Assembly: GCA_038503065.1 (NCBI GenBank)
Contig: JBCAMK010000006.1
Span: 372,001-436,000, forward strand
Direction of reading: 5' to 3'
From: Paragyromitra xinjiangensis
Lineage: Eukaryota; Ascomycota; Pezizomycetes; Pezizales; Discinaceae
Length of the DNA: 64,000 nucleotides
The notes under the pieces were generated by a model that saw nothing but the letters and a program-made list of their open reading frames with translations, searched no databases and was not told the DNA's origin. A program made the translations under genes and the position numbers. This document shows, piece by piece, positions 5,891 through 34,118 of this stretch. Positions within the stretch are counted from its first letter, which is position 1; every line of letters starts with the position of its first letter.

Positions 5891-7433
5891 ATGAACCAGG
5901 AAAGCTCTGCACCAACCCTAAACCACGAGCTGTTCACCAACTTCGGAAGGTCTCATCCACAAGTAGGAACCCACAACCGACAGTTCAAAAGCACTAACGT
6001 ATTCCGCTCTTAGATGCGCAACCTCCGAAATTTTTGAGCTAGTCGCCGCAGATAACACACGATTCTATATCCATAAAGACATCCTCACATCCCAATCGCA
6101 GCCTTTCCAGGAATCCACAAGAGGAGTACGGAAAGAGGAGCGCAGGATTGAACTTAAGGACTGGGATAGCGATACCGTTGCTCGACTAATTCAGTTTCTG
6201 TATACGGGGGACTACCAATATCCTGATCCAGTTATAATATCCGCAGCCCCGGAACCAGAAGTGATTGGCGAAGACGCAGATCCCCGGCCGCAGAGAGTGG
6301 AGCCGGAATCCCAACTACCTTATAATCGCCCGCTTACTCCGATAGGTCAATGCTTGGAGGGTTTGGTGTCTCCTATTCCAAACAATCGCGTTTGGGATTA
6401 TGAGAGACTGGGGCGCTTTAGTGGATCGAAGTGCGACTATAAAGTTGTTCTGCTGTCCCACGCCAGTGTTTATGCTCTTGCCTGTGATAAATCTATCGTG
6501 GCTCTGCAAGTCTTGGCACTAGGGCGACTCTTAGAAGTAATATCCACAATGAAGCCGATTGAGCCAGGGTCTCAACTACTACCCAACATTGTCGACCTCG
6601 CGCGCTACACCTATGCCCATACAGTCTGCCGCGCTGGGTCCAAAGAGCCACTCCAGAAACTCGTCTCCCAGTTCATTGCGCTGAACTTCGCGGTATGGCA
6701 GACTGAGTCGACGGCAATAGAGCTGATGGGTGAAGGGGGGGATCTTGTCAAAGATGTGATGGTGGGCGTGTCGAGGATGCTTATGAGTGTTGTAGCGCCG
6801 GAGGTGGTGCCCGAGCTGGTCCCGGAAAGAGTTTTTATCTCGCGGTTAAACGTTGGTATTCTCTTTGAAGCTTTTGGGTGGCCTGGCTGATAGTTGGTTT
6901 AGGTGGTACGTGGAACTGCGGGTCAGAGTCCGCCGTCTAGGCATGTCCAGGTTCTGAACAGCAAAGATTCTAGCTTGAACTACCCACTTCCTTCCCCGTA
7001 TGTCACCCTCCCCCATTGAAAAGAGAAGATTGGCGGCTGCACTCACCTCCTTGACACCAGCGAGTATCGTGGAGTGTAAAAGCTATCCTCCAATCCGCAT
7101 CTCATACCCTGCGTTATCTAACCGTTTCCTAGCGTCTGGTTCGTTCCCGAGTACACCACCCAAGAATGCGATGCCTGTACGACATTCCAAAAACCTGGCA
7201 CCGGTAGGAAAATAGTCTGGGATGGCTCCGGGGAAGACACGGGGCTCGCCCTCTATCTAAAGGCATCGAAGGAGAAGTTAGTGAAGAAAAAAATCACAGA
7301 GGTTGCGTTAGTACGTTGCGAGACCACATCTTTAGATCTCGCTCTGGTTGCGGAGTATAGTGGGATGAGCGCCGATATTGGACGCCATGATACGTATCTC
7401 TATTTGGTTTGGAAGTCGGTTAAAGTTGCCTGA
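5891..7433 (+). CDS. BTB domain protein with C-terminal MABP-like repeats, paralogue 2
   Basis: Four-exon gene of about 430 residues: exons 5891-5949, 6014-6851, 6903-6997 and 7133-7433. Exon 1 is again 59 nt and exon 2 is 838 nt, as in paralogue 1. The BTB domain carries TSEIFELVAADNTRFYIHKD and ARLIQFLYTGDYQYPDP. The C-terminal domain carries VVRGTAGQSPP, VWFVPEYTTQECDAC, KITEVALVR and LYLVWKSVKVA, two units resembling MABP-type beta repeats (inference). Exon 3 ends at a GTATGT donor that paralogues 1 and 3 share or nearly share, which fixes the last junction. The gene lies 1.8 kb downstream of paralogue 1 in the same orientation, so tandem duplication is likely. All frames are intact. Confidence 0.8.
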
Positions 7434-8892: not shown

Positions 8893-9100
8893 TATATGTT
8901 CTGACCCGTTTGTAATAATGGCCGATTTTCAAATCGGCCGGCCGGTTTGTAAATGGGGCAACTTTGAAAATCGGTTGACCGGTTTTCAAAGTGTTTTTTG
9001 TAGTTGGCCGGTTTTCAAAGTGTATTTTTAAGCGAGGGTGATCATTGTCTCACTCAAAGCTTGGACCAACCTAAGCTCGCTAAAGTACACTCAGGGCAGA

Positions 9101-9280
9101 AGCATCCCACTCAGATCGATAGCATCCCACTCAGGCCAATAGCATCCCACTCAGGTCGATAGCATCCCACTCAGGTCGATAACATCCTACTCAGGTGAAA
9201 AGCATCCCACTCAGATTGATAACATCCCACTCTGACTGATAGCATCCCACTCAAGACACAAGCATCCAAATCTCACTTGC
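9101..9280. repeat. 20 bp minisatellite, nine units
   Basis: Exact 20 bp periodicity from 9101, consensus AGCATCCCACTCAGGTCGAT, with variation mainly in the last six positions; the ninth unit is degenerate. It lies in the left untranslated part of the Ginger-like element, just upstream of the plus-strand gene. There are no spacers, so it is not a CRISPR array. Confidence 0.9.
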
Positions 9281-9352
9281 AACACATGAACATTGTTCAC
9301 ACGGAATCACACTCCCCCAAACCCCTGATCTCAATACACAAGAGCAACAACC

Positions 9353-10215
9353 ATGAATGCGACCGTGACAGCTGCCCCTTTTGGCTACAAAAAGAATGGT
9401 ACTCCGAGAACTAGGCGCCCACCAGGTACCGGACCACGCTACAAAAGTTCAGTGAAGATTGGTTCCGCAAACAGAGTTCAAGTTACGCGTACCCCTATTG
9501 CTCCCATTACACCACCACAGCCACCAACGACTATTTGTCCTATTCAAGAATGCGGCTTGGATTTCACAGATACCAAAGACCCGAAGAATTCACTTCTTGT
9601 TCATGTTAGATACAAAGCGGGAAAGGGGGACACACATCAGCAAAAAAAGATATTTGTCTTCAGGACCTTCAGGTGCAATATGGCCTTCTGGAAGACCCTG
9701 AAGACCCTGAAGACAAAATCTCACTGGAAGACAGAAAATATGTTCCCGGATTTGGCTGAATGATAACATATCAAAAGTGAAAAATTGTCTTCCAGTCCTT
9801 CAGATGCAATATGGCCTTCTGGAAGACACTGAAGGCCCTGAAGACATAATCTCACTGGAAGACAATTACTTTTTTTGCTGATGCAAAGCATCAGTTGGAA
9901 TTGGAAAAAATGAAAAAAGCCAGAAAGACTGATCGTGAGTACAAATCAATTTTCTAACCATACAAAAAGACAATAGGACTAACAAACATAGCTAAAATCT
10001 TGCAAGCAAGAAAGAATGCACGTCAACGAGAGTACAGTGCCAGAAATTTAGAGAGGGTGGAATATGAAAAAAAATTGTCCCGTGGTAGGGTGAAAGCTAG
10101 AAATATTTTGAAGAAGGAAGGAAAAGAAATAGACCCCTCTCGTGTGGAAAAAATGGCAGAGGAATATGTCAACAATTTATGGAAAATGCAAAGAATTCGA
10201 GGAGATACAATGTAA
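9353..10215 (+). pseudogene. Ginger-element passenger gene: zinc-finger-like / basic coiled-coil protein, interrupted
   Basis: The frame opens at ATG 9353 with a basic, proline-rich segment and a C-x5-C plus His pattern (CPIQECGLDF ... LLVHVR) that could bind zinc. It is cut at 9633 by a 249 bp CATCAGC element. Beyond the insertion the sequence encodes a charged helical segment (HQLELEKMKKARKTD). A 59 bp intron follows (about 9934-9992, GTGAGT to ATAG with an ACTAAC branch site). The last exon is basic (QARKNARQREYSARNLERV ...) and stops at 10215. Removing the insertion leaves the two parts out of frame, best explained by an indel in the run of G at 9621-9630. No family was recognised. It is convergent with the RTC4-like gene. 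Confidence 0.5.
9635..9883. mobile_element. CATCAGC-family MITE, 249 bp, copy 1
   Basis: Termini CATCAGCAAAAAAA and TTTTTTTGCTGATG, flanked by CA on both sides (9633-9634 and 9884-9885). Internally it has two similar units of about 95 bp rich in GGAAGAC/GTCTTC motifs, around a centre containing GGCTGAATGATAACATA. It has no coding capacity. It interrupts the plus-strand passenger gene of the Ginger-like element and is nearly identical to the copy at 10816-11064. Confidence 0.9.
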
Positions 10216-10815
10216 TAGTACTACAAGTGGGTTGTGTAGGTAGGTGTGGAATAAATAGTGGAGAAAGTATATGGAAATTTAAAAATGTAAAAAAAATTGG
10301 TTAAAAGGACAATTTAACGTCGTCGCCTTTGTTGTCAAACACCCCCATGAGTCATAGTTCCTCCTATAGGCTCAAATAAAGCCAATATTTCCTCTGTATC
10401 AAGTTGTTCTCCATATAGACGAGCTTTTGGATCATAAAGAATTGTTAATGCATCATCATAATCAATCTTCATATCCAAACTTATCATATGAGTAAGCACC
10501 TCAGGTGCAATAACTTCCAAAACCAGTTTCGTAACACCAGAAATATCCAAGTCTTCATCGGTAAATTTTCATCTAAGGTGGCTGTCATGGTACCAGGTAA
10601 TGTGTGGTAATAACTCGATTTGTGCTGTAAAAGCAAATTTAAATAAAAATATTAGTATTTTTTCCTATCATGAGTGTAAATAGTGATTTAAATAAGGGGT
10701 ATAAAACCTGCTACGTAGTATCCCACAGGGACTTGTGTATTCTCATTGAATGCATTCTCAGAGATGCTCATACGAGGGCCAACAGTACGGCCTGCTTGAG
10801 CTTCAATTCGAGCTT

Positions 10816-11064
10816 CATCAGCAAAAAAAGATATTTGTCTTCAGGACCTTCAGGTGCAATATGGCCTTCTGGAAGACCTTGAAGACCCTGAAGACAAAAT
10901 CTCACTGGAAGACAAAAAATATTTTCCCGGATTTGGCTGAATGATAACATATCAAAAGTGAAAAATTGTCTTCCAGTCCTTCAGATGCAATATGGCCTTC
11001 TGGAAGACACTGAAGGCCCTGAAGACATAATCTCACTGGAAGACAATTACTTTTTTTGCTGATG
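10816..11064. mobile_element. CATCAGC-family MITE, 249 bp, copy 2
   Basis: Same length and nearly the same sequence as 9635-9883, with the same orientation of internal units. Flanked by TT on both sides (10814-10815 and 11065-11066). It is inserted in the RTC4-like coding frame, which re-opens when the element and one TT are removed. The near identity of the two copies suggests recent amplification. Confidence 0.92.
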
Positions 11065-11403
11065 TTGATGGCTTTTATAAAAGTCAAGTGTTTGATAAGA
11101 GTCTATCGTTCGAGAAATTATATTTTCCAATTGCCGGACTCTATCTTCAACTGCAGAGGTAGTACTAGCTTCACGCAGCCATGGAAGTGAGGGATATTTT
11201 TGTAAGATTGCATGTTTGAGCGTATCAACTATGTGCTGGCCGTGGTTTCTTCCAATTCTTTCCATTGAGCTATCTGTTAAGTCTTGATTATATAATTATT
11301 TCATTTATTGTTAGCTGTTGTTTAACTTCCCCCACGGCTTTTTAAAAATAATATAGAAAATTGAACTATACCTATACCTGACTCATGCCTAGTACCAGAG
11401 GTT

Positions 11404-14400
11404 CATCAGCAAAACTGATTCTGATCCTGGCTTCTACTTCCCGGTCCCGCGTTCTCCTGGAGGTCTGAGCGTTGGTGTGGGAGAGTCCTGAGCACAACTG
11501 GATCAGCCACCCGTCTTGTGGTCTATTTTGGTTACTACAGGACAGAAGGACTGTGCTCCCATACACACTGTGGACCTCACCTACAAACCCATGGACCCTC
11601 ATGAGCCTTTCCGGAGCTTTCTTTGCCCACAGTTCATGGTGCTCTCCGGAGTTGCGTATCTCCCCCCAGTACCAATCAGGGTCCGCTTTCTTAGCTCCAT
11701 GGCGCTCTCTGGAGCTGTGTACCTTCCCCCAGTACCGATCTGAACACCACTGAAGTGTGTACCTGCCCTCTCCCAGTCCCCTGAAGTGCGAACCTCCACT
11801 TCACCAGTACCCTGAAGTACGTACCTGCTCTCTATTAGGGTCTCGAATTGCGCACCCTGCTGACGGGAGATCGCAGGATCTCGCTTGCAATTGAGTCAAT
11901 AACCCTGGCCCTAGGGACTTAGCGAATTTTTGGTAAAGGTCTTTTGCTGCCACCCGTACTGTTGCCACGTTACCCCTTTTCTCTTACTCCCACCCATCCA
12001 CACCCATCCACACCCATCCACACTCCCTATTACCCTTCCCTCCCTACTATGCAGTTACATGAACTTTGCTAACATCGTGACTTCAGTTCCAACATCCCAC
12101 ATACATTCGGACATCATTGACAGCAGACATAGGACCCTATTACATCAGACCTCGCCTGGTCGGACCCCTTCAGCCGCAGACCCCTTCAGCAGCAGACCTC
12201 GCTCACTTCCACAGCCTGCTGAATCAACTGCCTGAGAGCCTCCCGAGCTGCCTCCGAATCCTGCTGAATTGACTGCCGAATTGACTGCTGAATAGACTTC
12301 TGAATTGACTCCGAATTGGCTGTTTCCGAGCCTCCGAATCCTGCTGAATTGACTGCCGAATTGACTCCTGAATAGACTCCGAATCAGCTGTTTCTGAGCC
12401 TCCGAATCCACTGCTGAATTGACTGCTGAATTGACTGCTCAATAGACTCCAAATCGACTCCCGAATAGGCTCCGAATTGACTGCTGAATAGGCTCCTAAA
12501 TAGACTCCAAATCGACTCCAAATCAGCTGTTTCTAAGCCTCCGAATCCTGCTGAATTGACTGCTGAATTGACTCCTGAATAGACTCCGAATTGACTCCTG
12601 AATAGACTCCAAATCGGCTCCAAATCGGCTGTTTCTAAGCCTCCGAATCCTGCTGAATTGACTGCTGAATAGGCTCCTGAATAGACTCTGAATTGGCCGT
12701 TTCTAAGCCTCCGAATCCTGCTGAATTGACTGCTCAATTGACTCCTGAATAGACTCCGAATAGACTCCCGAATAGACTCTGAATAGACTGCGGAATAGGC
12801 TCCTGAATAGACTCCGAATTCTGCTGAATTGACTGCTGAATAGGCTCCCGAATAGACTCCGAATCAGCTGTTTCTAAGCCTCCGAATCCTGCTGAATTGA
12901 CTGCCGAATTGACTCTGAATCGGCAGTTTCTAAGCCTCCAAATCCTGCCGAATTGACTGCTCAATTGACTGCTGAATAGACTCCAAATCGACTGCGTGCC
13001 AGCGCCTGAAACAACTGCTGAATAGCAGACCAAACAATTGATTTAGGCACAGGCGGGTTTAGTGCGGGGGGGGGTTGTGTTATACCTATGGCTATAGGCG
13101 TGCAGTGGTCTCCCTGTTACCCTACCTACGTAGGGAGTTACCCTACCTTCCATTTGGTCACCTTCCCGTCTTCGTTGGACCCCTCTGTGGCTGCCTGTTG
13201 CGATATTGGCCTTCCCAGCCTATTCCCAGGCAGTTACCCTGCCTTCCCCGGTTACCCGGCCGTTACCCTGCCTTCAGCAGCGAGTAGATCGAGAAGGGGG
13301 GACACCCGCAAAATATCCGCGTCCCGGAGACTAAAAGTAACCCTTTGGTCGTCAACGGCGCCCTTCCCGCGGAACGTGACCCGGAGGGTATGTATGAGAG
13401 GTCTTCATAGGGCAACTTGGGGCGCCGAGTCACGTGGGCTATTCGGATTAGTCATCAGAGGTCTCCTGCCCGCGCTACGGGGCTCCAAACACCAGCTGTC
13501 GCAACAAAACGATATCGTGTAACCACCTACTCGATCGGGCGAACGCAACCGTCGCAATCGTATCATCGCCACGGCGATCCGAAGATTACTGAACGAGGGG
13601 TAAGCGTTGGAAGTTGGAGATATCGAACGTAATAGGATGTCGGATAAATGGATAAGCGAGTTAGTTCAATTTGTAATAGTAGATAGTTTAGTCCGTCGAC
13701 CAAGCTACAAAGAACACACAGTAGTAAAGAGGACGGGATATAAATACTCTTGCATTGGACGTCAATTCTGAGTCGATCATCATCGGCAAGAACGAGCCTT
13801 ATCAATATTATTTTGTTACCAACATACTTTGTTCCGCGATAAATTCTCCATCGTATCGAGTTGTTTAAAGATAGCTTCGCGCTTCAACACTCGTGTCCTT
13901 CCTATTGAGAAAGTTCTTTCAACGGAACAGCCCCGACCCTTATCTCGCTTAAACTATCGTTCTTTGTGCGGTTCATGCAAGTTGTCAGGACGTGCGCTCG
14001 GGTATTGTGCTACGGATAGTAGCCGGTCGAGTTACAGAGTCTAGAGAGCTATCTAAAGCTTCGCTTAGAATTCAGTAGTGGTGCGAAGTACCGGTCTTAC
14101 AGGTTGCCTCTAGTGGCGACTGCTTGATTTTGTACATAGAGATCCTATAGTATAGCTTTTCAATATACGTAGCCAAATTGATACCAATAATCATGAACAT
14201 TCGTGTACCCCTAGTAGTAGTATTATTGGCGCCCTACAGCCGCTCTATAAGCAACCTACAAGCGACAGTGTGGTCCACAGGAATTGATAGAGCTCCAAGA
14301 AGGTCCGCCATCTATGGTAGGTGGTCCAGGGAGGTCCACGAGGGTCCGTGAGAAGTGTTGTGTGGTCCAGGAACCGTGTGCAAGGGTCCTTGGGATATGG

Positions 14401-14492
14401 CTGTTCCATGGACTGGCACTTGCCTCCATCTGGTCCGCGCTGTCCATGAGGGTCCGGGAGCGCCCGGGAGCCGAGAATCGGTTTTGCTGATG
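11404..14492. mobile_element. Large CATCAGC-family element, 3.1 kb, non-coding
   Basis: Left end CATCAGCAAAACTGATTCT, right end the inverse AGAATCGGTTTTGCTGATG; flanked by TT (11402-11403 and 14493-14494). The interior has short repeats (11640-11830, CTGAAGT/CCAGTACC), a large GAATTGACT minisatellite (about 12225-13020), a GC-rich part (13080-13520), an LTR-like stretch and unique sequence. No transposase frame was found, so it is presumably moved in trans. It splits the first exon of the RTC4-like gene. Confidence 0.85.
12225..13020. repeat. GAATTGACT minisatellite with higher-order structure
   Basis: Built from 11-13 bp modules such as TGAATTGACTGC, TGAATAGACTCC and CGAATCGGCTG. They are arranged in units of about 60-120 bp, each beginning with TTTCTAAGCCTCCGAATCCT (near 12309, 12389, 12530, 12630, 12698, 12870 and 12928). 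The open frames on both strands here are a by-product of the repeat, not genes. Confidence 0.85.
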
Positions 14493-14743
14493 TTGTACCA
14501 GTATGCATTGCAATGTTGCTTGCAGATACTGTCGGCAGTGTGGGATTGGCTATACTCGTATTCACCCATTTTCTTTTTTGTTTAGAGGCTTTTGTGAGAC
14601 TGGTGTTTGCCTGTACTGTTAGTTGTAAGCATGGTGCAAACTGCTATGTGGCTTTAATTGTAGGAGAGTTACCATGATCGTGATTTTCTGAACTATCATG
14701 AACATTAGTGGGGCGAGAAACTATTGCTATTTCGGTTCGGTTC

Positions 14744-17541
14744 TCAAGAGGAGATAGATTCCCAGTCATGTTCATCCGAATGACAGTAAACTGAACATTT
14801 GACTTGGTTTTTGAGGCACCGACAGCGCCCTTGACACTTGTTCTTACAATTGCACAAAATACTGATACGATCAGATGTAGATTGATGACCAGCAGCTGCA
14901 TGCAAAGAGATTTTGGTTAATATATTTCCTAACCTTCCAGCAACATATTCCCGTTCACTGTCTGGAATTCTGAGCAGCTGATTTGTAGGATACCAACGAT
15001 CAAGAACACCATATTGGCATTGAAGTTGATATGTTTTGCAGTTTTTGACTTTGATTACTTTGTGTAACGGGGGTGGTCCTCTAGACAACTGCTAAGGCTA
15101 GGTAGGAAAACGGCCGTTGCTTATACTAAAGTCAGGCTGAGATCTTAAAGTATTTTCGTGCAGTATACTCAATAATCTTAAGGGTGGAACTCGGTAATTC
15201 TCTTCACTAGGTCTCTGGTTGAAGATGGAGAAGAGCAACTGGTGGCGGGGCTCGCCAGTACTTGTAGTACTGCATGCTCGCCGCCTCTACTCAGTTCTAC
15301 TCAGCTGGGGGATCCGGTTAACCCTGAATCCTGTCAGTGATCATGGGCGGTTCCCTTCGGAAGTGTTCTCTCACATTCCGCTGGAGTTCTGCACCTCATG
15401 TGCAACCGCTCCTCATGCACTGCTCTACCAGTCAGGACTCTATGATCCGCCAGCCTAGTCCTGTAGGACTACTTGCATGGCGCTGATCAGTCCATAGTTG
15501 CGTCAGGTGTCCGCTAGAATAGTTCTCCCAGTTGCGCCGCCTATCAGCCATAGCTGGTGGGGCATGCACAGGTGGATTTGGAACTCAACCACATCTCTAA
15601 GTGTTTGATGTCATCGGAGATCTGCTACAGGCCTGTCAGCCTTAGCACCTCCAGATGTTCCTAACCACCAGGTCAGCAGGGTACTGGTGTTCCCTAGCAT
15701 GTGGTAGCTACTCCACTCATGCTGGTCCTTGTACCTCTCCGTCTGCCCGGGTCTATTCTACCTTTCGCATGTAACAGCCTTGTGGGTCCGTTACACTTTG
15801 CATAAAAGCCGTGATGGATCCGTAGATGCTCGATCTAATCTTGGAACAGCAAGACTAACAAAATCGCCAGGTAAAAACACTTCTACTCGATTCTGCCGAG
15901 AATGTTTTTGAACCATTTGATCACGTGCATGAGCTGCACGTACTTGCACTTCTCGCTCGATTGTCGTTAAAAGTGCCGGGTCAATAGGAAGTTGACTCTC
16001 AAATACCCCGTAGCCTGCCTCCTCAAATTCGGCTTTATTTTCATTAGTAATGAATAGGCTTTAAAAAGCATGGATAATTATTACCTCCTGTATCAACAAG
16101 ATTTTCATTTGAGGTATCATAATCTCGGTCAAAACTGTAAGTGGTTTGCCAGCCATCAATTTCTGTCCTTTCCTGCCCCTTCACGCTCTCATCTGAAATG
16201 TCCTCATTTGGTATATCATCTTCAATTGCAGTTGGACGATTCCAAGATTCCAATTTCTCTGGCCAACGTGGAGCTCGATTAAACATGATTTCGTATGGTG
16301 GCTTTCCTGTAACTGAATGTGTTTGCAAATTCATAGCTAATGCGATTTCTGGCAATGCGGTTGCCCAAGCAGGTGATTTGTTGTCTAGCTTCCACGCTTG
16401 AAGTTTTGCTTTAAAAGTCCCATTAGCTTGTTCAACCAAACCTTGTGTCTGAGGATGTCGTGGGCGGCCATTAATGACTTTTATTCCATGATTTTTCAAC
16501 AAGACCAATAGAACTCCTTTGAATTCTTTCCTGTTATCGCACTGCAAAATCTTTGGTGGCCCAAAACATCCAATCCATTAAGCAACATTTGTAGCGACTT
16601 CGTTACAACATTTGCTTTTGAGTGCAATAAGGGAGGTATACTTGCTGAAGTGGTCGCGGATATGTAACAGCCATTTAAATTGACCATCAGGTTCATGACG
16701 AAGATCTACCAAATCAATCTGAACTCGTTCCAAAGTGAAGTTTGAAACAATTGGTTCCAGTATCCCTTTTGATTGCTTTGCTCGGTTAACCATACAGGTT
16801 CTCCATCGTGTCAAAAGCCATAGTACATCATCGCGTACAATGCCGTAGTATTCCTTCTGAATTGCTTTGTATGTTTTTTTGTAGCCAGCATGTGCTAGAG
16901 TGACATGAAATTTCTGTATAATGTTGAATATTTCCGAATCGGTTACTGCTGGTCGAGCAGGGAGTTGATGTTTTGTGTCTGCTTTCCGAAAGACCTGGCC
17001 ATCCGTGTACTGATAGTATTTGTAGGCATAATTCCGTTGATTGTGCGCTTTTTGATGTTCTGTAGATCCTGTTTAATATGAGAGTACACAGTTAAAATTT
17101 TCTCTGAAAACTTTTGTGGTCGGCTCCAGCTAAAAATTTGAATAAGCAATCACCTACCTTTGTCGCCTGGCATTGCATTGTCTGGAAACATAAGCCAATT
17201 ACGATAGCTTTCACGTTCGTCAAAAGTAAACCATATTTTGCTTTTGTTGTCAGATGCAGTCAAGTATGTATGGAAATCGCATTGGGTTTCAATGCTGAAA
17301 CAAGGCTCAGGTTCCGAGAGATGACCACTCAAATTTGAAGACATACTGATTGTTGTTGTGTAATAATGCTTAAAAGAATCGCTTGAAGTTTTACCGGTAG
17401 ACAGGGTATGTGGGGTAGTAGATAAAGCAGCTTGCGACTCGGACAGAGCAAGATCAGTGAATGTGAAAAACTGCGATGATAAAAGTATGCTAGGTTGATG
17501 AGTTTTATCAGTGGGAAGGTGGAGGACCAGCACATCAGCAA
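14744..17541 (-). pseudogene. Ginger-type transposase (integrase family), inactivated
   Basis: Minus-strand gene with an 89 bp intron (17069-17157), a second intron near 16028-16087 and a solo LTR at 15063-15795. In order: an N-terminal region (17541-17158), an HHCC-like zinc region (HVTLAHAGY ... RWRTC), and a DDE integrase core with D in VQIDLVDLRHEPDG, D in LQCDNRKEFKG and E in TQGLVEQANGTFKAK. Then come an FLPGDFVSL(A)VPRLDRA motif and a C-terminal cysteine cluster (CNCKNKCQGRCRC ... CSVYCHS) as in Ginger/KRBA2-like proteins. Defects: an in-frame TAA at 16578-16580 between the first two catalytic Asp, Trp in place of the first Cys of CxxC, the LTR insertion, and separation from its 5' end by the element at 17533. 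Excising the LTR with one CTTTG restores the frame. Confidence 0.85.
15063..15795. mobile_element. Solo LTR, 733 bp
   Basis: Starts TGTAACGGGGG and ends CCGTTACA, flanked by the 5 bp duplication CTTTG (15058-15062 and 15796-15800). TG...CA ends and a 5 bp duplication are typical of LTR retrotransposons. Its position inside the Ginger transposase frame, which re-opens after removal, confirms the boundaries. The parent superfamily cannot be told from the LTR alone. Confidence 0.9.
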
Positions 17542-18845
17542 AAAAACGGATTGTCGCCCGGTCCGCCTAATGCATCAGGCGCCCCAGGTGGTCTGGGCGG
17601 AATATAGCCCTCCCTCAGGCTGTAAAATTTGCTCTTCACATCTGGGTGACAGTTTACCAGAGGTCAGCATGGGGGCGCCCTAGGTTCAGGAGGCTATTCT
17701 CTGGGCGACCACGGAGGGTTGACGAGCGTCTGGAGGACAGCGGGGGGAGAGCAGCGCGCCCACAGAATCACATTTTCAGCAGGTCGCCCTATGGGCTAGT
17801 TTGGGAGTTTTCACCTGGCCTGGCACCATATGCTTGTTTACAATCGTTCTATTATTTCTATGGATCTATATATAGTTCTATATGTACATGTATCTGTTCT
17901 TCGTACTCTATGGGTAGGGGGGGGGTTGAGCATCGAATTGACGACCTGGCGGAGGCGGCGGAAGCTCAGGCAGTGAATTGACCATATGGCGCAGGCAGCG
18001 GAGGCTGCTGCATCAAATTGACCATGTGGCGCAGGCAGCGGAAGCTCAGGCAGCGAATCGACCATATGGCGGAAGCTCAGGAAGCTCAGGCAGCGGATCG
18101 ACCATATGGCAGAGGCAGCGAATCGATCAATTGACTGAGGCAACAGAAGCTCAGGCAGCGAATTGACCATATGGCGGAGGCAGCGAATTGATCAGCATAT
18201 TGAGCTCGCTTAGGCGGAAGCAGAGGAAGCTGAACCAGCAGATCGAAGCGAGTCTAGGAGGCATATCAGCGGGAGTCAAATAAACGGAATCAAGACGTTA
18301 CCTGGAAGGTTCTTTGCAAGCAGAGCTCGTTACTTTGAACCTAAATGTCACGATGTCAGCGGTACAGCGAGGTAGGGGATGGGTGGGAGTGAATAGGGGA
18401 TGGGTGGGAGGGAATAGGGGGAAGCAATAGTAGGAAGGACGGGAGAGGTGGAGATTGGTGTCTTATTAGGCGTTGCTTTGGCGACGGCATGGCGACTACT
18501 AAGCGATGACTAAGCGACCTGGAGATTTTTGAAAATCGCTAAGTGCCTGGGGGGAGGCGAGGTGAATTTCGCTAAGTCCCGAGGTTTTAGAGACTTAGAG
18601 AAAGAAAAAAAAATTCAGTCGGGCAGCCTGCTGAATTTCGCTAAGTGCCACATCCGGGTGCGGGTGGTCACAGCTAAGCTGCAGCTGTGCGCCAGGAGGC
18701 CGGAGCGCTGTGCAGCCTGCGCCCACACAGGCCAGCGCTTGGAGCAGCTCGCCTAGGCGATCTGGAAGGCCACAAACGCAGCAGGTGGAATATGGCCTTC
18801 CAGAAGACAGGATAGTGTCGGGGCGACTTTTTTTTTTTGCTGATG
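17533..18845. mobile_element. CATCAGC-family element, 1.3 kb, non-coding
   Basis: Left end CATCAGCAAAAAAACGG, right end CGAC followed by a T run and GCTGATG; flanked by CA (17531-17532 and 18846-18847). It contains a minisatellite (17930-18240) and a right part rich in CTAAG and purine tracts, with TATGGCCTTCCAGAAGAC near the end, a motif shared with the 249 bp MITEs. It separates the Ginger transposase from its 5' end. Confidence 0.88.
17930..18240. repeat. Minisatellite of ATTGACCATATGGCG / GGAAGCTCAGGCAGCG modules
   Basis: Imperfect repeats of about 35-60 bp built from two modules, ATCGACCATATGGCGGAGG and CAGCGGAAGCTCAGGCAGCG. They account for the overlapping open frames on both strands. 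The repeat lies inside the 1.3 kb CATCAGC element. Confidence 0.8.
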
Positions 18846-19075
18846 CAGGTGGACATGTGGACACTTAGCTTTTAGCGTGCTTATGTATTCCCTTTTAGTT
18901 TTACTTGTTGCTGTGAAAAAATTTTACTTTGAGTATCGGCCGGGTGCAAAATTTACTTTGAAGATCGGCCAGCCGATATGTAAAGTTGCACGGTTTGTAA
19001 ATAGGCTGAACCATTTGTAAAGCGGCCTGGCCACTTTGTAAACCGGCATTCTTGGAATATGGGTCAGAACATATA

Positions 19076-20793
19076 CAAGCAAAATCCCCTATGGATTACG
19101 TCACCCTTCCACCATCCTAGTTCAGCCTCATGACCACAAACTTATCTAAGCAACAATGACTTTCTTATCTCAAGCACTTCTCGTCCACAGCCATGGCTAG
19201 AGTTAGGTGATGTGTATTAACTCACAAGCCCATCCATGGCCGATTTGGCACCACATTCATAGTTTACTCAGGCCAAACCTACATGTAGTCTTATGCCCAG
19301 TGCCACTGGGCAGCTTGCAGCGCGCAGCAACCCATGGTAGGTGGGGATGGGGACGAGCCTATGTCAATCCCCCCAAAGTACCAACTCTTCCAAAAATAGA
19401 ATGAACCCTAAGCTGTATGGCACCGAAAGTCTAAAATGTGGACAATACCAACGAAGTATGCAACGCTCTTGGCATCAATATTAGGCATTCTTCTGAGGGT
19501 TATAGCTGAAAACTTAGATCACATGCAACTAACGTGCTTTGCTACGTTCTCAACCCTAATCCTGCCACCAAGAGCGTTGCATCCTTGTTAGTTTTGTCTA
19601 TATCTAGACTTCCGGAGCCATGCAATAAAATCCATCCTAACTCCAATTGGGTGTTTACAAGCAGCCGCCTGGGGTAGCACAAAGAGGAAGTGAACCACTA
19701 CTGCGCAATAACAATCTAGGGGCAGGGGCGCCAAAACTATATATCAAAAATCAAGACGCATCGCGATAAAAATCTACACTCCTCGTAATTGAAAGACACT
19801 TACACGTAACTGTTGATTTCGTCCCTACAGTATCTACTGTTTTATAAGTAACTCGGATTTTATAGTCCAAATAAGGTTTTTGTCTCAGCCACCTTTCCTC
19901 GGGGGTTCGGGAGCATGTTCAAATTGATATTGGAGCTGAAATCAGAAGTTCACAGACCCTCCCTTGAGCTCAGGGACATTTTGAGACATTGACCTCCTCA
20001 AGAGTCCTCATTGAGCAAGAATTAGCGGAAAGCTCACGCTTTTACATTCGTCGAGCACGGACTTTGTCTCAAACTCTATTTTGACCCTCAAATGGCTTAT
20101 CCCTTACGCTGGTAATGCTGCCAACTTCCTTCCGAACAGGTCTTGGAGGGTCTTAGGTGTGTGGCTTGCGTGTTTTTCTCATCCTAATACGGTTTGGTTT
20201 CTCGGATTAATGTTGACAGCATCAGAGGACCAGCGTAAGAGATAACCCAGCAAATACGGTATCTTGAAGCCACTTACCCGCCATATTTCACAAGTCTTGA
20301 ATAGTAGGATACACTGCGGCCTCTGTTTTACCCTAGCTCTAGCTGCCATTCTTCCCTGGTTACTTTCCTCTACTATCCCGATAATATTTTTCCTGTACAA
20401 TAATCTTAAGCGCACGATAAGCATGTTGTACAAACTTCACTTTTGGTGTAACAGCGGCCCGCGGAGCCTCACCGCGCTTAAAGGAATAATTTGATCAACC
20501 ATAAAATGGCATCTCATACTCTGCTGAACGAAGTTTTGTTACAACCTTGTGGCCTGAATATCAAAAAGTCACAATCTTAACGAAATACTAGCACGTGGAT
20601 CTTCTACTAGTAACTCTACGATCGTCTTTGCCAGTTATTCTGTCTTACATCTAGACCTTAATTATTGATTAACATAACTGTGACGGTGGAAGCTCTGGTG
20701 CTTCTCTATGATTAAGCGATTTTGAGTTACCGAATTTTGAGATCCTGTGTGCTTTGTATCTACTATTCAAAAATAAATCGTAACTTGTTGGTG
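19076..20793. other. Region between two transposons, no gene recognised
   Basis: Host-like sequence between the Ginger-like and Tc1/mariner-like elements. The only open frames are below 85 codons and have no recognisable motifs. Confidence 0.45.
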
Positions 20794-20795
20794 CA

Positions 20796-20913
20796 CATCA
20801 GCAAAAAAAGTAATTGTCTTTTAGTGAGATTATGTCTTCAGGGCCTTCAGTGTCTTCCAGAAGGCCATATTGCATCTGAAGGTCCAGAAGACAAATATCT
20901 TTTTTTGCTGATG
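20796..20913. mobile_element. CATCAGC-family MITE, 118 bp deletion derivative
   Basis: Both ends match the 249 bp MITE in opposite orientation (left AGTAATTGTCTT, right AAGACAAATATCT), but only one of the two internal units remains. Flanked by CA (20794-20795 and 20914-20915). Loss of one unit by recombination between the repeated halves is the simplest origin. Confidence 0.9.
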
Positions 20914-21789
20914 CATAGCAGGACTAACTACCACAGCGCCACAACCACAGCGCCACAACTCTATTATTCTGTAAGGTTTATCCGAGAATTCTAAAGTAGA
21001 ATACCGATTGTAATTTTGTGGCTGAAGTGTTGCCGTATTGCAAACAATAGTGGAGTTTGAAGAGTTTCAGTTACTGCTTAGGTGAACCTATAACGTATTA
21101 TACCGTGTACCCGATCACCATTGTGTAACCGATCACAAAAATATTAAAAATAAAAATGCCACTTATGATAACCTAGGACCCTCCCTCTACCTGTTTCTCT
21201 CACTACGTAGTGCTGGGTCTTTCTAGATATATAGTGCATGAAGCGATTAACGTGTACCTATATGTGACCTATAATGCAACCGAGGCCTAAGCGCAAGCTG
21301 GGTGTCGAGTGGGTTAGTGTTTTTGCTCGCTTCACCAAAAACCATCTTTTATTTCCAGAGCGCGCAGGTAGGCAAGCAGGCAAAAGCGTGGGTGCATATG
21401 CGTGGGTTTACAGGTTAGGGGATGGGTGGATGGGTTGATGCGTGTTGATGTGGGAGTGCGCCCGAGGCCTTTTAATGGTATAAAGAAAGGGGATTTGTTC
21501 CAGTTCACGAGCAATGCGAGTGGACTTTCACGAGCTGCCGGACTTCCTCGTCTGGGCCGGAAAGACGAGAAGGGGATGGCCCCAATCTATAGTAGTTAGT
21601 AGACACGGCTTGCCGGCGTGACGTGACACGGTAACAGTAGGTAACGTGGGATAGAAAGACATGTAAATGTTCAACTATAGAAGGCCACAGCACATATTTT
21701 TGCAAATATAAACTATGCAATGTACCAGAGTCCTTCATCTTTTATCCATCACATTCCTCCACCACATATTTCTCCCATTATTACCAATC

Positions 21790-22181
21790 ATGCCTCCGAT
21801 CCGAAATTCGCGTCTCGATCCCAAACAGAAACGGCTCGGCGATCTCTCTACATGGTCGAATGTTTACCACAAATTCCCGGATATTGCAGCGTACGAAACA
21901 CAGAACTGGAGCTGGCGCTTTTGGGCTTATGTTAATGAACCAGCTGTTAGTACATAACATTAAAGGGGATAAAATAATAGTAACTAACAAGTAAATAGAT
22001 TGCTTGGGATATCGGAGCTCTATTTGATCGAGAGAACTACACTGTGGGCGAGGATTCTGACTGGATGTGGTTTATGACCTATTTGAAAAGGCAATTGAAA
22101 GAGGAAACCAAAAATTTGACGAGAAAAAACCATTTGCGTATTTTATTGAAGGAAGCAAGAAGGATTACTAGGATGTGGTAG
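21790..22181 (+). CDS. Small companion protein of the Tc1/mariner-like element
   Basis: Two exons (21790-21945 and 21999-22181) give a 112-residue protein. The 53 bp intron has GTTAGT and AAATAG borders and a TAACTAAC branch site. The protein begins MPPIRNSRLDPKQKRLG, is rich in Trp (NWSWRFW, DWMWFMTYL) and ends with a basic helix (KNHLRILLKEARRITRMW). No known domain was recognised. It is divergent from the transposase at the other end of the same element and has no stop or frameshift, while the transposase is broken. A DNA-binding or regulatory function is possible but not shown. Confidence 0.6.
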
Positions 22182-23666
22182 AGTTGTGTTATAAATGCGG
22201 AGATCTATTTATTTTCTAAGAGTTAATTTGCTAATAATTAAATTTGTAATTGAGAGAAACATACCAATGATAAATTCACATGTTTTCTAAAATCATAAGG
22301 TTTCGCGATCTGAAACATGCCTATGACTTTTATAAACCCGTTTAAATTCCTCTGTTCCATATGTGATACCATCCCGATAACCTTGCATAATTCATTGAGT
22401 TTTGTTCCAATACTTCCATATTAACCAATCCGGCACCGATTTCATTGCCTTTTGGTACAATATCTCGTAACACAGTAATACTGTACCCACAATTTTCGTG
22501 AGCATATTGTTTTGCTGCACCCCAATAGTATTTGATAAAGTTGAGTTCACAATGAAATTTAGGATAAAATATTACTTTATGACCATGGCCTTCAATAGCT
22601 TCCTGCAATCGCCCTTTCTGTGCATGACAATCAGGTTGAATTGCCATTAAAGATTGAGCAAAGCATTGTCCTTGGCGAAGCATAATACAATCTTCTATTC
22701 GTGTATCATGTTCTTTCCCATCAATCCCAATATGCTTGCATTTTAGCCGTAATCCCTTTTTCGGCCAAAGTTTTCGTTCGCAAAGCACCCTTTTTAAGCC
22801 TTTTGGCTTTCCTCGCCACTCCCGAGGAATAGTGACATCATTGATATCAAAGGTCATGACTTGATGACGTCCATTGAAGAACCCATCTCGCATATCAGGT
22901 TGTTTTCCACCAGGCGTTAAATTCATTTTGCTTGCCAATAAAGCTTCAGGTGCAAATGACGCATGACTTGTTGCATTGTCAAATAGAAATACTGCTTGGC
23001 AACCAGGATGAGCGCTTTCGAATATTGGAATTGCCTGTTCTAGTACTTGTTCAATCAAATTCTCACAAGTCCACCAGGTATCTCCCCCGCATTCTAAGTA
23101 CTCTGTTGCAAATCGTTGGCAAGTTGGTAAGTCACAATCTGGCACTGAATCAGGAATTTTGAGTCGTCCAATTGGAGTTAAAAACTCAGACACCATGATT
23201 CCCTGTCCTCGTGTTTTTGATTGTAGTGGCATTCCATTGTTTTCTACCCATTGTTGGTGACGACAGTCGTTTGCGTTGAAAGTGCATTCATCATGTGTAA
23301 CCATTACTTGTACTTTTCCTTTCATAGGTACCTCCGATCCTGGATCTGTTAATGTGAATGAGTGATCAATATTTAAAGCCCAATGCCTCGATGTGGGCTG
23401 AAGGGCTTCAAGAGATGGTAAAAACTCAGATTGCCGATAACTTATTACACTTTCCCGATCATGACCATCTTTATATACTCCCTTTTTAACATCCTTCCAA
23501 TCATATCCTAATCGATGTAACCAAGTAAAAGCTGATCGAGATGTTAAACTGAGTGGCGTGGAAGTATTCAAATCAAGCAGTGGATTTTCTAAACCAACAA
23601 TTGTAGCATGTGTCAATTATAAGGTTTCTTCATCATGTTCTGCTTGTTTTGATCGCCAGTAACTAA

Positions 23667-25983
23667 CATCAGCAAAAAATTCGTTCCTCAACAGAAGTCA
23701 GAGTGTTGGTCACGCCTCGGCTGCCTCGCTGTGCCTCACTGGAAATTTCATGATCTTGTTTCTCCTCGCTGACCTCGCTGCAACTTTAGGAGCACTCCCC
23801 GTCCTCGCTGGCCTCAGCAGAGATTAGGATCATGGCCTTTGTCCTCTGCAGAGATCAGGATGACGTTATGCGTCCTCGTAGAGACAGCGCTCAGCTCTGG
23901 CCTTGGTAGAGGGTCATTTGGGGCAGGAATTTGGCCGCTGCTTCTAGGGCTCTAAATAGTGGAAATACGCTTGATTCGCTATCTCTATATCTATTGAACA
24001 ATAGCTATGTATAGAATTCGCTATCTACAAGTCACTCTAGGACAATATTTATGTACAGGCTTCTTCATTCATATGCACCAATGTCCCAATCACCATCCAC
24101 ACCGACACCGAGCCCAGACCGCAGACAGTGGGTCCAGCAGCTAGGCAAGCCTGGAGACAGCAATAGGAAGTCAACGAATTGAGCAGTTAGGCGCACCTGG
24201 AGGCAGCTTAGGAAGTTAGCGAATTCAGCAGCTAGGCGCGCCTGGAGGCAGTAATAGGAAGTCAGCGAATTCAGCAGCTAGGCGCGCCTGCAGGCGGCAA
24301 TAGGAAGTCAGCGAATTGAGCAGCTAGCCGAGCCTGCAGGCAGCAATAGGAAGTCAGCGAATTCAGCAGCTAGGCGTGCCTGGAGGCAGTAATAGGATGT
24401 CAGCGAATTGAGCAGCTAGGCGCGCCTGGAGGCAGCAATAGGAAGTCAGCGAATTCAGCAACTAGGTGCGCCTGGAGGAGTCGGCGAATTCAGCAACTAG
24501 CCGAGCCTGCAGGCAGCAATAGGAAGTCAGCGAATTGAGCAGCTAGGCGCACCTCCAGGCAAATAGTAGGAAATCCAGCGAATTTGGCTGCTAGGCAGGC
24601 TCAGGAGGGATCGTGGAAGAGGAGGAACAGCGGAGGGTAGGCGAGTCGACCCGAATACCTGTAAATAACACGTGTTAGCAAGTGATCAGCCAAAGACTTG
24701 GAGGAGACCTAGGAAAGCAGAAGATCGCGAGATTTGCAACAGGCGGAGGACGGAGAAGGGGGAGAGGTTGCCTAAATCAGAATGAGGATATTTCTTGTAG
24801 GGTAAATCCGCTTACTAAGCCTGGCTGAAGGGAACCATATTTTTTTCGCAATGCACTTCAACATTTATTTTGGCTGTGTTCTCCATACATTTGAGATGCT
24901 GATTTGCATAAAGAATAAATCAAAGTTCGGTACAAAACGAGTGATTTGGTGTGGCTTGATTCCGCTTAACCGGCTGCCAAGCTTGCCTCTTGGCGTAAAT
25001 TTTCCCTGCTCCCAACCTCCTCCCAACCTCTTGCCTCTATCCTCCTACCCCTATCCTCCTGCCACTCCACCTCACGATCTTCAGCTTTCCTAGGTCTGCT
25101 CCAAGTCTTTGGCTGATCATTTGCTAACACGCGTTATTTACAGGTATTCGGGTCGACTTGCCTACCCTCCGCTGTTCCTCCTCTTCCACGATCCCTCCTG
25201 AGCCTGCCTAGCAGCCAAATTCGCTGAATTTCCTACTATTTGCCTGGAGGCGCGCCTAGCTGCTCAATTCACTGACTTCCTATTGCTGCCTGCAGGCTCG
25301 GCTAGTTGCTGAATTCGCTGACTCCTCCAGGCGCGCCTAGCTGCTGAATTCGCTGACTTCCTATTGCTGCCTGCAGGCTCTGCTAGTTGCTGAATTCGCT
25401 GACTCCTCCAGGCGCGCCTAGCTGCTGAATTCGCTGACTTCCTATTGCTGTCTCTAGGCTCGCCTAGCTGCTGGATCCACTGTCTGCAGTCTGGGCTCGG
25501 TGTCGGTGTGGATGGTGATTGGGACATTGGTACATATGAATGAAGAAGCCTGTACATAAATATTGTCCTAGAGTGACTTGTAGATAGCGAATTCTGTACA
25601 TAGATATTGTTCAATAGATATAGATATAGCGAATCAAGCGTATTTCCACAATTCAGAGCCCTAGAGGCAGCAGCCGATGAGTGACTGAATTCCTGCGTGA
25701 CGTGACCCTCCAGCGAGACCACAGCTGAATGCTGTCTCTCTAGAGACGAAGAACGTCGTCCTGATCTCGGCCGAGGATGAAGAACGTGGTCCTGATTTCT
25801 GCCGAGGACGAGGGTCGTGGTGCTGCTCCTCGGTGGAGGTCAGGATCTTGCTCATGCCTCGGCAGAGATCAGGATCTTGCTCATGCCTCAGCGGAGGTCG
25901 GGGCGTTGTTCATGCCTCTGCAATTCATAAGTTTCCTCGGCGGCCTCGGCGGCCTCCACAGAGGAATGAATTTTTTGCTGATG
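23667..25983. mobile_element. CATCAGC-family foldback element, 2.3 kb
   Basis: Ends CATCAGCAAAAAATTC and GAATTTTTTGCTGATG; flanked by AA (23665-23666 and 25984-25985). Most of the interior is a long inverted repeat: left arm about 23931-24735, right arm about 25068-25676, differing mainly in minisatellite copy number. No transposase was found. It splits the Tc1/mariner-like transposase. Confidence 0.9.
24112..24600. repeat. Minisatellite in the left arm of the foldback element
   Basis: About nine imperfect 46-50 bp units containing AGGAAGTCAGCGAATTCAGC and AGCTAGGCGCGCCTGGAGGC. The inverted counterpart at about 25205-25480 has about five units. The AscI-like GGCGCGCC octamer recurs in most units. 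Confidence 0.85.
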
Positions 25984-27277
25984 AACAACCGCATTTGCTA
26001 GTCCTTGTCCAGTAACATGTAATATAAAGTTTAGCATATACTATCAATCAATTAACAAATCAAGTTATTCACTTTTTCCTGCAACTCCAATATACTTTCG
26101 TGCAGCCAACAAAGTCCCTTCATCTTCCAACATACTCATTACTTTACCCGTCCTGCCTTGATATCCCAATGGTATTTGCCTTCTTTTTATCCACCCTTTC
26201 TCATGACGGAGGATTTGTTCTGATACAACTCGACCTCTTTGAAAAGAATTTGCAATTTGCAGGGCTAACTCTTTACGTGGCACAAGTGGTTGCATAACTT
26301 GTACTCGTAGAAATTGTAGAACTTGTTGGTGTCGGGGTATATCTTGTCCATGTAGTTTATTGCATTTTGAATTTAAAACTTTGGATAAATCCGTGATAGC
26401 TATGTAACGTTAACTTAATTCTAAGCTAGTCAATAAATAAATCATTAATTGGGTTATACCGGCTGTCAATATTTCAACTCTAGCCATCGAAGAAGATTGA
26501 ACCCTGATAGGCCATGTTTCAAGCAATTTTTGAATGCTAAGCTTATCGCCTGGCAATACAATTGCATTATCTGGTACAGATATTTGTACATTTGTTACTA
26601 GCAATGGTAGTTGACCGATCTCAGTTGTTGAGGAGTTAAGATCTGTCTCCGAATGAACACTCAAGCTCAAGTTGTTGAAATCACCCGTTAAATCTCTTAA
26701 TGCTAGCTTTGCTTCTTCTTCTAGCTGTTTCTTTTTCCGCCGCCATATTGTTTGTCGACAGACCTGTTTTACAGGAGTTGTTGTCAATGTATCACTTGTG
26801 AAGGTTGAGGTATCCGTGAATGGTAAATCCACGCCTGATGGGATGTCAGTGGGTGTTGAACAAGTTCCAATACAGTTTTCATTGCCTGTAGACAAAGGCG
26901 TTATTGTCTGTCGTTCAATTATTTGTTGTTTTCGAATTTGTGCTGCTTTGCGAGCTGCAATGCATTTTCTGTTTGGGCGTGTCATGTTTGTTGTGAAGGT
27001 TTAGGGGTTGTATACGTGAAAGTACCAAGATTAGATAGGCTAGATTTACACTCAGACCTCTTCAGGTGAGACCTTACGATGTTGCATTTTTCTTACTTTT
27101 TACGGAGATCTCCATACAAAATCAAAATTTTCAAAATTTAACATCATAATGAAAATTTGTACCAAACCTCATCTACAACCGACTACTAGTAAATCATCCC
27201 CAGGAAATCATATGGTCGATTAATAAATGTGATAGTGAGGTGTATGACAAATTTTATTACTTTTTCAAAATTCAGTA

Positions 27278-27524
27278 CATCAGCAAAAAAAAAAAGTGGC
27301 ACTTAGTGCCTCTGAAGGAATGTGGCCTTCCAGAAGATCAGGATGCACTGGGTGCCAAAATGATACTGGGTGCCAAAAATATTGTTACCGGATTAGGCTG
27401 AATGATAACATACTAAAAGTGAAAAATTGCACCTGGTACTTCTGAAGGAATGTGGCCTTCCGGAAGATCAGGATGCACCTGAAGACCAAAACGCACTGGG
27501 TGACAATTAATTTTTTTGCTAATG
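27278..27524. mobile_element. CATCAGC-family MITE, 247 bp, diverged
   Basis: Left CATCAGCAAAAAAAAAAAG, right TTTTTTTGCTAATG with one substitution in the terminal heptamer; flanked by TA (27276-27277 and 27525-27526). It keeps the centre (GGCTGAATGATAACATA, AAAAGTGAAAAATTG) and two flanking units, but the units have diverged to GGCACTTAGTGCC-type sequence. It looks like an older subfamily than the 249 bp copies. Confidence 0.88.
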
Positions 27525-28095
27525 TACACATTAATCGCTTCCTCCACCATATCTAGATAGCCATCAGAGGCTTTAGAATGAATTTCATCCATTTCATTCC
27601 AGATCTAAGATGACACCAGAAAGCAAAGCCGCTACCTCATCAACAACCTGAAGTGTGACTTTTTAGAAGCCTGCCACATCTAGTTGGTTTTGTACTTTTG
27701 TTAAGGCCTGTATGGTGGTTTGTTGATGGCTAAAGCATCAAAAATTATGGTCTGAAGCAGTTCTGGGCTTGGACCTGATCGGTTACACGATGATTATCGG
27801 GTACACGGTATAATACGTTAAGTCACACCCCTTTCTAGCAGTTTGGTCCCACCTTCCTTTACGGCCACCACCAGGAGAAATCACTCATGAGACATCACTC
27901 GGCGCCAAGGATCGTCCCTTTGCAGGATCTCAATCAGGAGATCTCCGTGGGGTGTTGCAGGCTTGGCATGGATGCCTGAACCACGAAAGTCGTTTACTAG
28001 TACCTTTCCCCCGCATCCCTCTTTTTTCCCGTTTTCCTCTATCCACACATAGTTTCCCTTCCAGAACTAGGCAAAAACAGACGACGTCCTCCAGT

Positions 28096-29585
28096 ATGGG
28101 TCAAGCAAGCACAGTACCAACTCTAAACATAGAGCTCTTCGCCGACTTTGGAAGGTTTAAACTAAAATAAGAAATCCACAACTCAGGATCCACGATGACT
28201 AACGTACCGTGCTCCCAGATGCACAACCTCCGAGGTATACGAGCTCGTATCTTCAGATAACAAACGATTCTTCATTCATAAAGATATCCTCACGTTCCAA
28301 TCGCAGTCGTTTCAAGAAGCCGTGAAAGAAGCCACAGGGCACAAAATTGACCTTAAAGACTGGGACAGCGATACTGTTTCTCAAATGGTTCAGTTCCTAT
28401 ATACCGGTGACTACCAATATCCTGATCCGATTCTAATATCCCCAGCCCCGGAAGAAGCGGATGGGAGGGCAAAGCCTGAGCCGAAGGGGCGGGTTCCGGA
28501 ATCCCTACGCGGCAATGAGCCTATAGACCCGCTACATAAGTTTCTACTAGGCTTGCCTCCCGCTCCTAAATGTCACCTTTCGGATGCTGAGAGACTTTGC
28601 GGCTCCAAGGGAGCCAAGTTCGACTATGGAGATGCTCTTCTTTCTCACGCAAGTATCTATGCCCTTGCCCGCTATAAATCTATCCCGGCGCTGCAACATC
28701 TGTCATTCCATCGTCTCTGGTTAATACTATCCATGATGGAACCAATTGAGCCAGGGTCTCACGCCGGCCTCAACCTGGTGGATCTGGTACGCTTCACCTA
28801 TACAAATACCGCCCGCCCCATTGACTCCAGAGAGCCCCTCCGTGAGCTTATCTCTGAGATGATTGCAGAGCTTTTTCCGCGCTGGCAGGCCGAGCCGGCA
28901 GCAGTGGAACTGATGTGTGAAGGAGGGGATTTCGTTAGGGACGTTATGGCTGCGATGTCGAGGAAAATTGCGGATGATGTAAAATCACCTCGGGTGATAC
29001 CCTCTCAGGTGCCAGAGCCTCAGGTGCCATCGACAAAAGTTTTTATCTCGAAGCTAAACGTTGTTACTCCCGTTGGATTAACGAAGGGCTAGCTGATGAC
29101 TCGGTTTAGGTGGTGCGCGGATCCGCCGGCCAGAGTCCACCATTTGGTTATGTTCGAGCTTTGCACGGGAAAGACTCGAGTCTTAGTTACCCACATTCTT
29201 CACCGTATGTTATCCACTCCTAGAGAAAAACCCACGATCCCAATATCCGGTCGCGGGCAAGGACTGCACTACCTCCATCTCACACATACTCCCCAACCCG
29301 CATCACAGCGCCTGGTTCGTCCCTGAATACAGCACCAACTCGCAGCACGCATGCACGAAATTCTGGGAAACCGTCGCTCAACCTTTCATGGCCAGGTCTC
29401 CCCAGTATCTAGAGGAAGTTAGGGACCAGTCGGTAGCGGAGAAGATTACCGAAGTTGCGTTGGTGCGTGGTGATGCTGGGGTTTTGGATCTGGCTTCGCT
29501 TGCGGGGTATAGTGGGATGAGCACTAATATTGGGCGGAATGGGGTCTTGCTTTATCTTGTTTGGAAGTCAGTCAAGGTTCAGTGA
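28096..29585 (+). CDS. BTB domain protein with C-terminal MABP-like repeats, paralogue 3
   Basis: Four-exon gene of about 423 residues: exons 28096-28154, 28219-29059, 29110-29204 and 29309-29585. The 59 nt first exon, phases and junction motifs equal those of the two upstream paralogues. The BTB part carries TSEVYELVSSDNKRFFIHKD and VQFLYTGDYQYPDP. The tail carries VVRGSAGQSPPFGYV, SPAWFVPEYST, KITEVALVRGDAGVLDLASL and LYLVWKSVKVQ, which reads as two MABP-like repeats (inference). All frames are open. It lies just beyond the right end of the Tc1/mariner-like element, which may have brought new upstream sequence. Duplicated upstream segments (27887 and 27959) are retained. Confidence 0.8.
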
Positions 29586-34044: not shown

Positions 34045-34118
34045 CCCGAATTCCACACCTGTACTTTTTCCCATAGTAAACCCATCCTTCAGCTTTACCC
34101 TCCCATTTCTCCACCACC

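Follow-up and report, generated by a model that had tools for sequence, protein, structure and literature searches.

Which transposase moves a set of elements that begin with CATCAGC, end with GCTGATG and duplicate two bases of no fixed sequence? The question is raised by a 64-kb stretch of contig JBCAMK010000006.1 (the window), part of a 48.2-Mb genome of 22 contigs; below, C-numbers are contigs and L-numbers are loci fetched from this genome. Seven such elements, of 118 to 3,089 bp, were located in the window, where an earlier note had placed them and with the identical flanking dinucleotides that it had read (Table 1). Their termini are CATCAGCAAAA on the left and TTTTGCTGATG on the right, and the sole substitution, also reported in that note, affects the right end of 27278-27524 (at 27524), which reads CATTAGC on the minus strand. 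We assign them, with a probability of about 95%, to the PlavakaB lineage of the CACTA/Mirage/Chapaev/Transib group, as known from its published description: they are non-autonomous cut-and-paste transposons, some of them miniature inverted-repeat transposable elements (MITEs, 118-249 bp) and the others longer derivatives. This assignment is based on the terminal sequences, on duplications of 2 bp, on empty counterparts of insertion sites and on three elements of 9.1-9.3 kb in this genome that have the same ends and enclose a PF18759 transposase.

The window holds 17 sites matching CATCAGCAAAA with at most one mismatch, against 1.66 +/- 1.30 in 100 shuffles (largest 5), and exact 11-mer ends number 434 + 420 = 854 in the genome, against 8 + 9 = 17 for the reversed pattern. 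The fetched loci, a non-random sample, were placed on contig coordinates and their ends paired allowing nesting, which gave 69 pairs, or 68 once a zero-length artefact was removed. The tabulation of flanking dinucleotides proposed in the earlier note returned equal 2-bp flanks in 56 of the 68 pairs, while a random re-pairing of left and right flanks averaged 7.6 matches, with a maximum of 17 in 2,000 shuffles. Twelve different dinucleotides were duplicated: TG (10), TT (8), TA (7), CA (7), TC (6), AA (5), GA (3), AG (3), AT (3), CT (2), AC (1) and CG (1). Matches of 3 bp and of 4 bp were found in one pair each, few enough for chance, and the MITE pairs alone gave 24/28 matches at 2 bp and 0/28 at 3 bp. 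A weak symmetrical site preference was also present, with C before the duplication in 22/56, T as its first base in 31/56, A as its second in 22/56 and G after it in 22/56.

Empty sites fix the length of this duplication at 2 bp. Flanks were joined with one copy of the dinucleotide and matched against fetched sequences, and eight distinct insertions had an empty counterpart at more than 90% identity. The junction was clean in five of them (TA C1:2828030, AA C17:879639, CT C15:1732223, TA C15:1747547, GA C6:1419323). For AG C1:3014761, whose counterpart is window element 23667, there was a one-base gap at the junction; the site of TG C2:2829450 falls within a short tandem repeat, and that of TC C22:660208 has a mismatch inside the dinucleotide itself. 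The 1,852-bp element at C1:2828030 is inserted in a Plavaka transposase gene, apparently within a putative intron, and its empty counterpart, at 99.5%, lies in the autonomous element C2:1578384-1587666.

None of the seven window elements carries a transposase, as the earlier note had observed, and the driver that it expected elsewhere in the genome does exist. Three copies with CATCAGC ends enclose a transposase that matches Plavaka (PF18759) above the curated cut-off, so that its guess of CMC/Mirage or Plavaka-like elements was right in its Plavaka part. These are C1:1659341-1668416 (9,076 bp, TC/TC), with matches of 9e-16 and 1.3e-54 in two pieces that are probably exons, C2:1578384-1587666 (9,283 bp, TG/TG) and C2:2817033-2826347 (9,315 bp, GA/GA). 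The empty site of MITE C15:1732223 falls inside the C2:2817033 element, and this MITE together with the geometry suggests a fourth autonomous copy on C15. Across the genome, at least 125 stretches match PF18759, partly several per gene (best 123 of 168 candidates scored). In an alignment of 27 sequences, summarized by position, C140 and C143 are invariant and H411/H415 and E435 are conserved at 90% or more, the catalytic D/E residues being assigned by inspection. A second long frame runs on the strand opposite to the transposase in at least two of the three autonomous elements (Table 1); the two frames resemble each other by eye and possibly encode an accessory transposition protein. A sequence search of the PDB gave no match.

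Two other origins have to be weighed. MITEs of Tc1/mariner or pogo-like type, duplicating TA, would agree with the seven TA duplications, and such elements may occur in the window, where a 424-aa frame at 22342-23616 (-) has a sub-threshold DDE_3 match (27.0 bits, cut-off 28.6) and is possibly a Tc1/mariner-type transposase. However, Tc1/mariner always duplicates TA, whereas a dinucleotide other than TA was duplicated in 49 of the 56 cases, and a single AA, CT or GA stands in clean empty sites. The earlier note had likewise argued against Tc1/mariner from the variable duplication, and we regard this origin as practically negligible. The ends might also be driven by another superfamily, ISL2EU of the PHIS group or Mirage, both of which leave 2-bp duplications. 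Harbinger relatives leave 0, 2 or 3 bp (PMC12730594). Yet the same paper gives CATCA..TGATG as the PlavakaB terminus, and the transposase within the end pairs is a Plavaka one. We therefore hold a driver from ISL2EU or Mirage to be very improbable.

Among known systems, plant CACTA elements resemble those described here in having subterminal repeats and a second protein beside the transposase. Transib and RAG1, with their 5-bp duplications and CAC.. ends, differ, and the identity is about 12%. The earlier note did not recognize the family; however, termini of CATCA..TGATG and duplications of 2 or 3 bp have been published as characteristic of PlavakaB (Kojima 2025, PMC12730594), and the family is thus known in kind. 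The likeness extends to the termini of all seven window elements (with the one substitution in 27278) and the 854 exact ends, to the 2-bp duplications and to a Plavaka transposase in which C(2)C and H(3-4)H motifs precede the last E. Unlike PlavakaB as described, the three autonomous elements contain no Tet_JBP match (the genome has four, two of them above cut-off), and the families of Kojima 2025 were reconstructed from Agaricomycotina (PMC12730594), while the host here is probably a Pezizomycete. PlavakaA shares the Plavaka transposase and 2-bp duplications but has TGT..ACA termini (PMC12730594) instead of CATCAGC..GCTGATG. EnSpm/CACTA elements share CA..TG ends, but the Puccinia families have CAC..GTG termini and 3-bp duplications (PMC12730594), neither of which characterizes the elements described here.

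Organism names accompany eight of the 120 transposase homologues listed, and these are only Maublancomyces gigas (61%), Morchella (38-55%) and Kalaharituber pfeilii (38%), all Pezizomycetes. Outside Basidiomycota, Plavaka is in print for Rhizophagus and the protist Amoebidium (PMC11075540, PMC11244446). Within the further Plavaka literature consulted (PMC9674265, PMC8290104, PMC11075540, PMC11244446), a Marasmius genome paper states that Plavaka end motifs were characterized, in its supplement. In one open-access collection, no paper on a family with this end motif was found, as judged by title and abstract, nor any on Plavaka together with MITEs or, by phrase search, on shared interiors with different ends. 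Plavaka together with Morchella returned PMC12730594 only, and the Plavaka and Morchella literature of that collection yielded no published report of PlavakaB in Pezizomycetes.

We propose that a DDE transposase of RAG1 fold would bind the CATCAGC ends together with family-specific subterminal sequence, excise the element and join it to the two strands of the target with an offset of 2 bp. Because of this spacing, repair would then duplicate 2 bp of nearly any sequence, with a weak C-TA-G preference. The window copies would borrow the transposase of autonomous copies. Element 17533 is most likely served by the family of C2:2817033-2826347, with which it agrees in its outermost sequence (103 bp at 86%, 91 bp at 84%); 56 exact copies of one end of the C2:2817033 type shared with 17533 were found. 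The 249-bp MITEs have just 21-30 bp subterminal stretches in common with that element, so that to name it as their driver is a guess. One candidate partner, on C12, turned out to be a MITE of 136 bp that is flanked by TG at either end and lies close to another Plavaka gene.

Several observations weigh against the PlavakaB assignment. The 9635 family had no autonomous partner in a search with the last 100 bp of the MITE (best 40 of 65 candidates scored), and none was identified for the families of 11404, 23667 and 27278, for which no dedicated search was made. On C1 and on C2 up to 2,876,247, for which all exact ends were listed, 11 Plavaka loci were counted, and only 3 of them are enclosed by a pair of exact ends with equal duplications; the other eight could represent different Plavaka families or disrupted copies, or their ends may be altered. 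The dinucleotides are unequal in 12 of the 68 pairs, possibly through mutation, through recombination of one copy with another or through insertion of one element into another. The seven window insertions have no empty site among the fetched sequences, and confidence in the predicted fold is intermediate (mean pLDDT, the predicted local distance difference test score, of 74).

The earlier note held that the seven elements share only the end. The ends are indeed common to all, but some of the elements share more than that: 9635 and 10816 agree at 98.8% identity, 20796 belongs to the same family in a shorter form, and 27278 is 73% identical to 9635. The 249-bp MITE has at least 43 matches in the genome, at least 25 of them full-length at 95% identity or more (9635 included) and at least 24 at 98% or more (lower bounds, best 40 of 71 candidates scored), which argues for recent movement. 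The upper size of 3.1 kb given in that note agrees with the 3,089 bp measured for 11404, about 1 kb of which is an inserted solo long terminal repeat (LTR) and no part of the transposon. Element 11404 was originally about 2 kb, and the solo LTR came later; a relative, L017:1454-3379, is 1,926 bp long. The LTR boundaries were read off the printed sequence, and a copy in L010 matches 13077-14101 at 97.5%. Outside the window, PlavakaB-type insertions lie within or next to copies of this LTR (L010, L030). The inverted repeats of element 23667 (23812-24130 and 25478-25807) are 85% identical, and a relative at C1:3013610-3016340 holds a nested 247-bp MITE.

Nine of the longer non-autonomous elements, with three end sets, have in common a core made of an array of GAATTGAC-like units and of non-array sequence. 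In elements with its own ends, the block 18330-18604 is 82-97% identical (one short extra piece 75%); where the ends are those of the C1 autonomous copy or belong to the third set, identity is 73-82%. None of the three autonomous elements has a match to it. Through a further set of interiors with arrays, 11404 and L017 are linked to elements whose ends are C2:1578384-like (69-70%). Of 15 longer elements, eight have a longest frame that falls within the spread of 20 shuffles, and seven (23667, L009, L013, L017, L025 and two in L028) have a longer one. These long frames run through tandem arrays, often in more than one reading frame simultaneously, and we therefore treated the interiors as apparently non-coding.

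Our preferred reading, at roughly even odds, is that the longer elements are modular, one core being joined to at least three end sets, two of them from different autonomous PlavakaB families; such a parasite could switch from one transposase to another through a change of ends and yet retain a core absent from the three autonomous copies. In agreement with this, cross-family similarity, measured against shuffled sequence, drops at one boundary from z 19-33 inside to 3.2-5.7 outside, whereas the single within-family comparison shows no drop (about 31 on both sides), and the orientation of the core relative to the A-rich end is constant in the nine elements compared. The five cross-family comparisons are not independent, since all use L010, and the one with the third end set (L013) breaks off at a different point. 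A competing explanation without end exchange, to which we give a little under an even chance, is that a separate repeat was inserted several times or that the ends simply diverged faster. It agrees with a core that is rich in tandem repeats and that falls to 73-82% identity between families, and the residual similarity of the ends, still above shuffled sequence, fits divergence from a common end.

Table 1. Elements and associated features (window coordinates, except where an L-number is given).
Feature	Position	Strand	Duplication	Remark
249-bp MITE	9635..9883		CA (9633-9634 / 9884-9885)	
249-bp MITE	10816..11064		TT	9635 family
Non-autonomous element, 3,089 bp	11404..14492		TT	length includes later solo LTR
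Degenerate tandem array	about 12261-12982			inside element 11404
Solo LTR (TG...CA)	13078..14101			nested in element 11404; GGTTG on either side (13073-13077 and 14102-14106)
Non-autonomous element, 1,313 bp	17533..18845		CA	
Degenerate tandem array, 40-bp unit	17930..18194			inside element 17533; unit contains GAATTGACC
Non-array core block	18330..18604			inside element 17533; common to elements with three different end sets
118-bp MITE	20796..20913		CA	9635 family, opposite orientation
Non-autonomous element, 2,317 bp	23667..25983		AA	long inverted repeats
247-bp MITE	27278..27524		TA	one right-end substitution
Second frame, 640 aa	L027:3973-5895	-		weak sub-threshold Tri-helical match
Second frame, 512 aa	L023:5773-7308	+		no Tri-helical match

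The window also contains a 638-aa frame at 34080-35996 (+) with a full-length match to a DDE_Tnp_1_7 (piggyBac-type) transposase (E 2.7e-58), retrotransposon integrase fragments (Integrase_H2C2, rve_3) at 16044-17072 (-) and three BTB/POZ frames of about 300 aa on the same strand (2691-3584, 5967-6890 and 28199-29092, +), possibly a local gene family. For one other frame, the sole organism-named homologue (1 of 16) is from Maublancomyces gigas, at 37%. An Rfam scan of 9000-28500 gave no match.

These data place PlavakaB, represented by complete autonomous copies as well as by MITEs that moved recently, in what is probably an ascomycete class. A RAG1-fold transposase that duplicates 2 bp also offers a useful comparison with Transib and RAG and their 5-bp duplications. 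Finally, a core shared across different ends provides a testable case of non-autonomous elements changing transposase.
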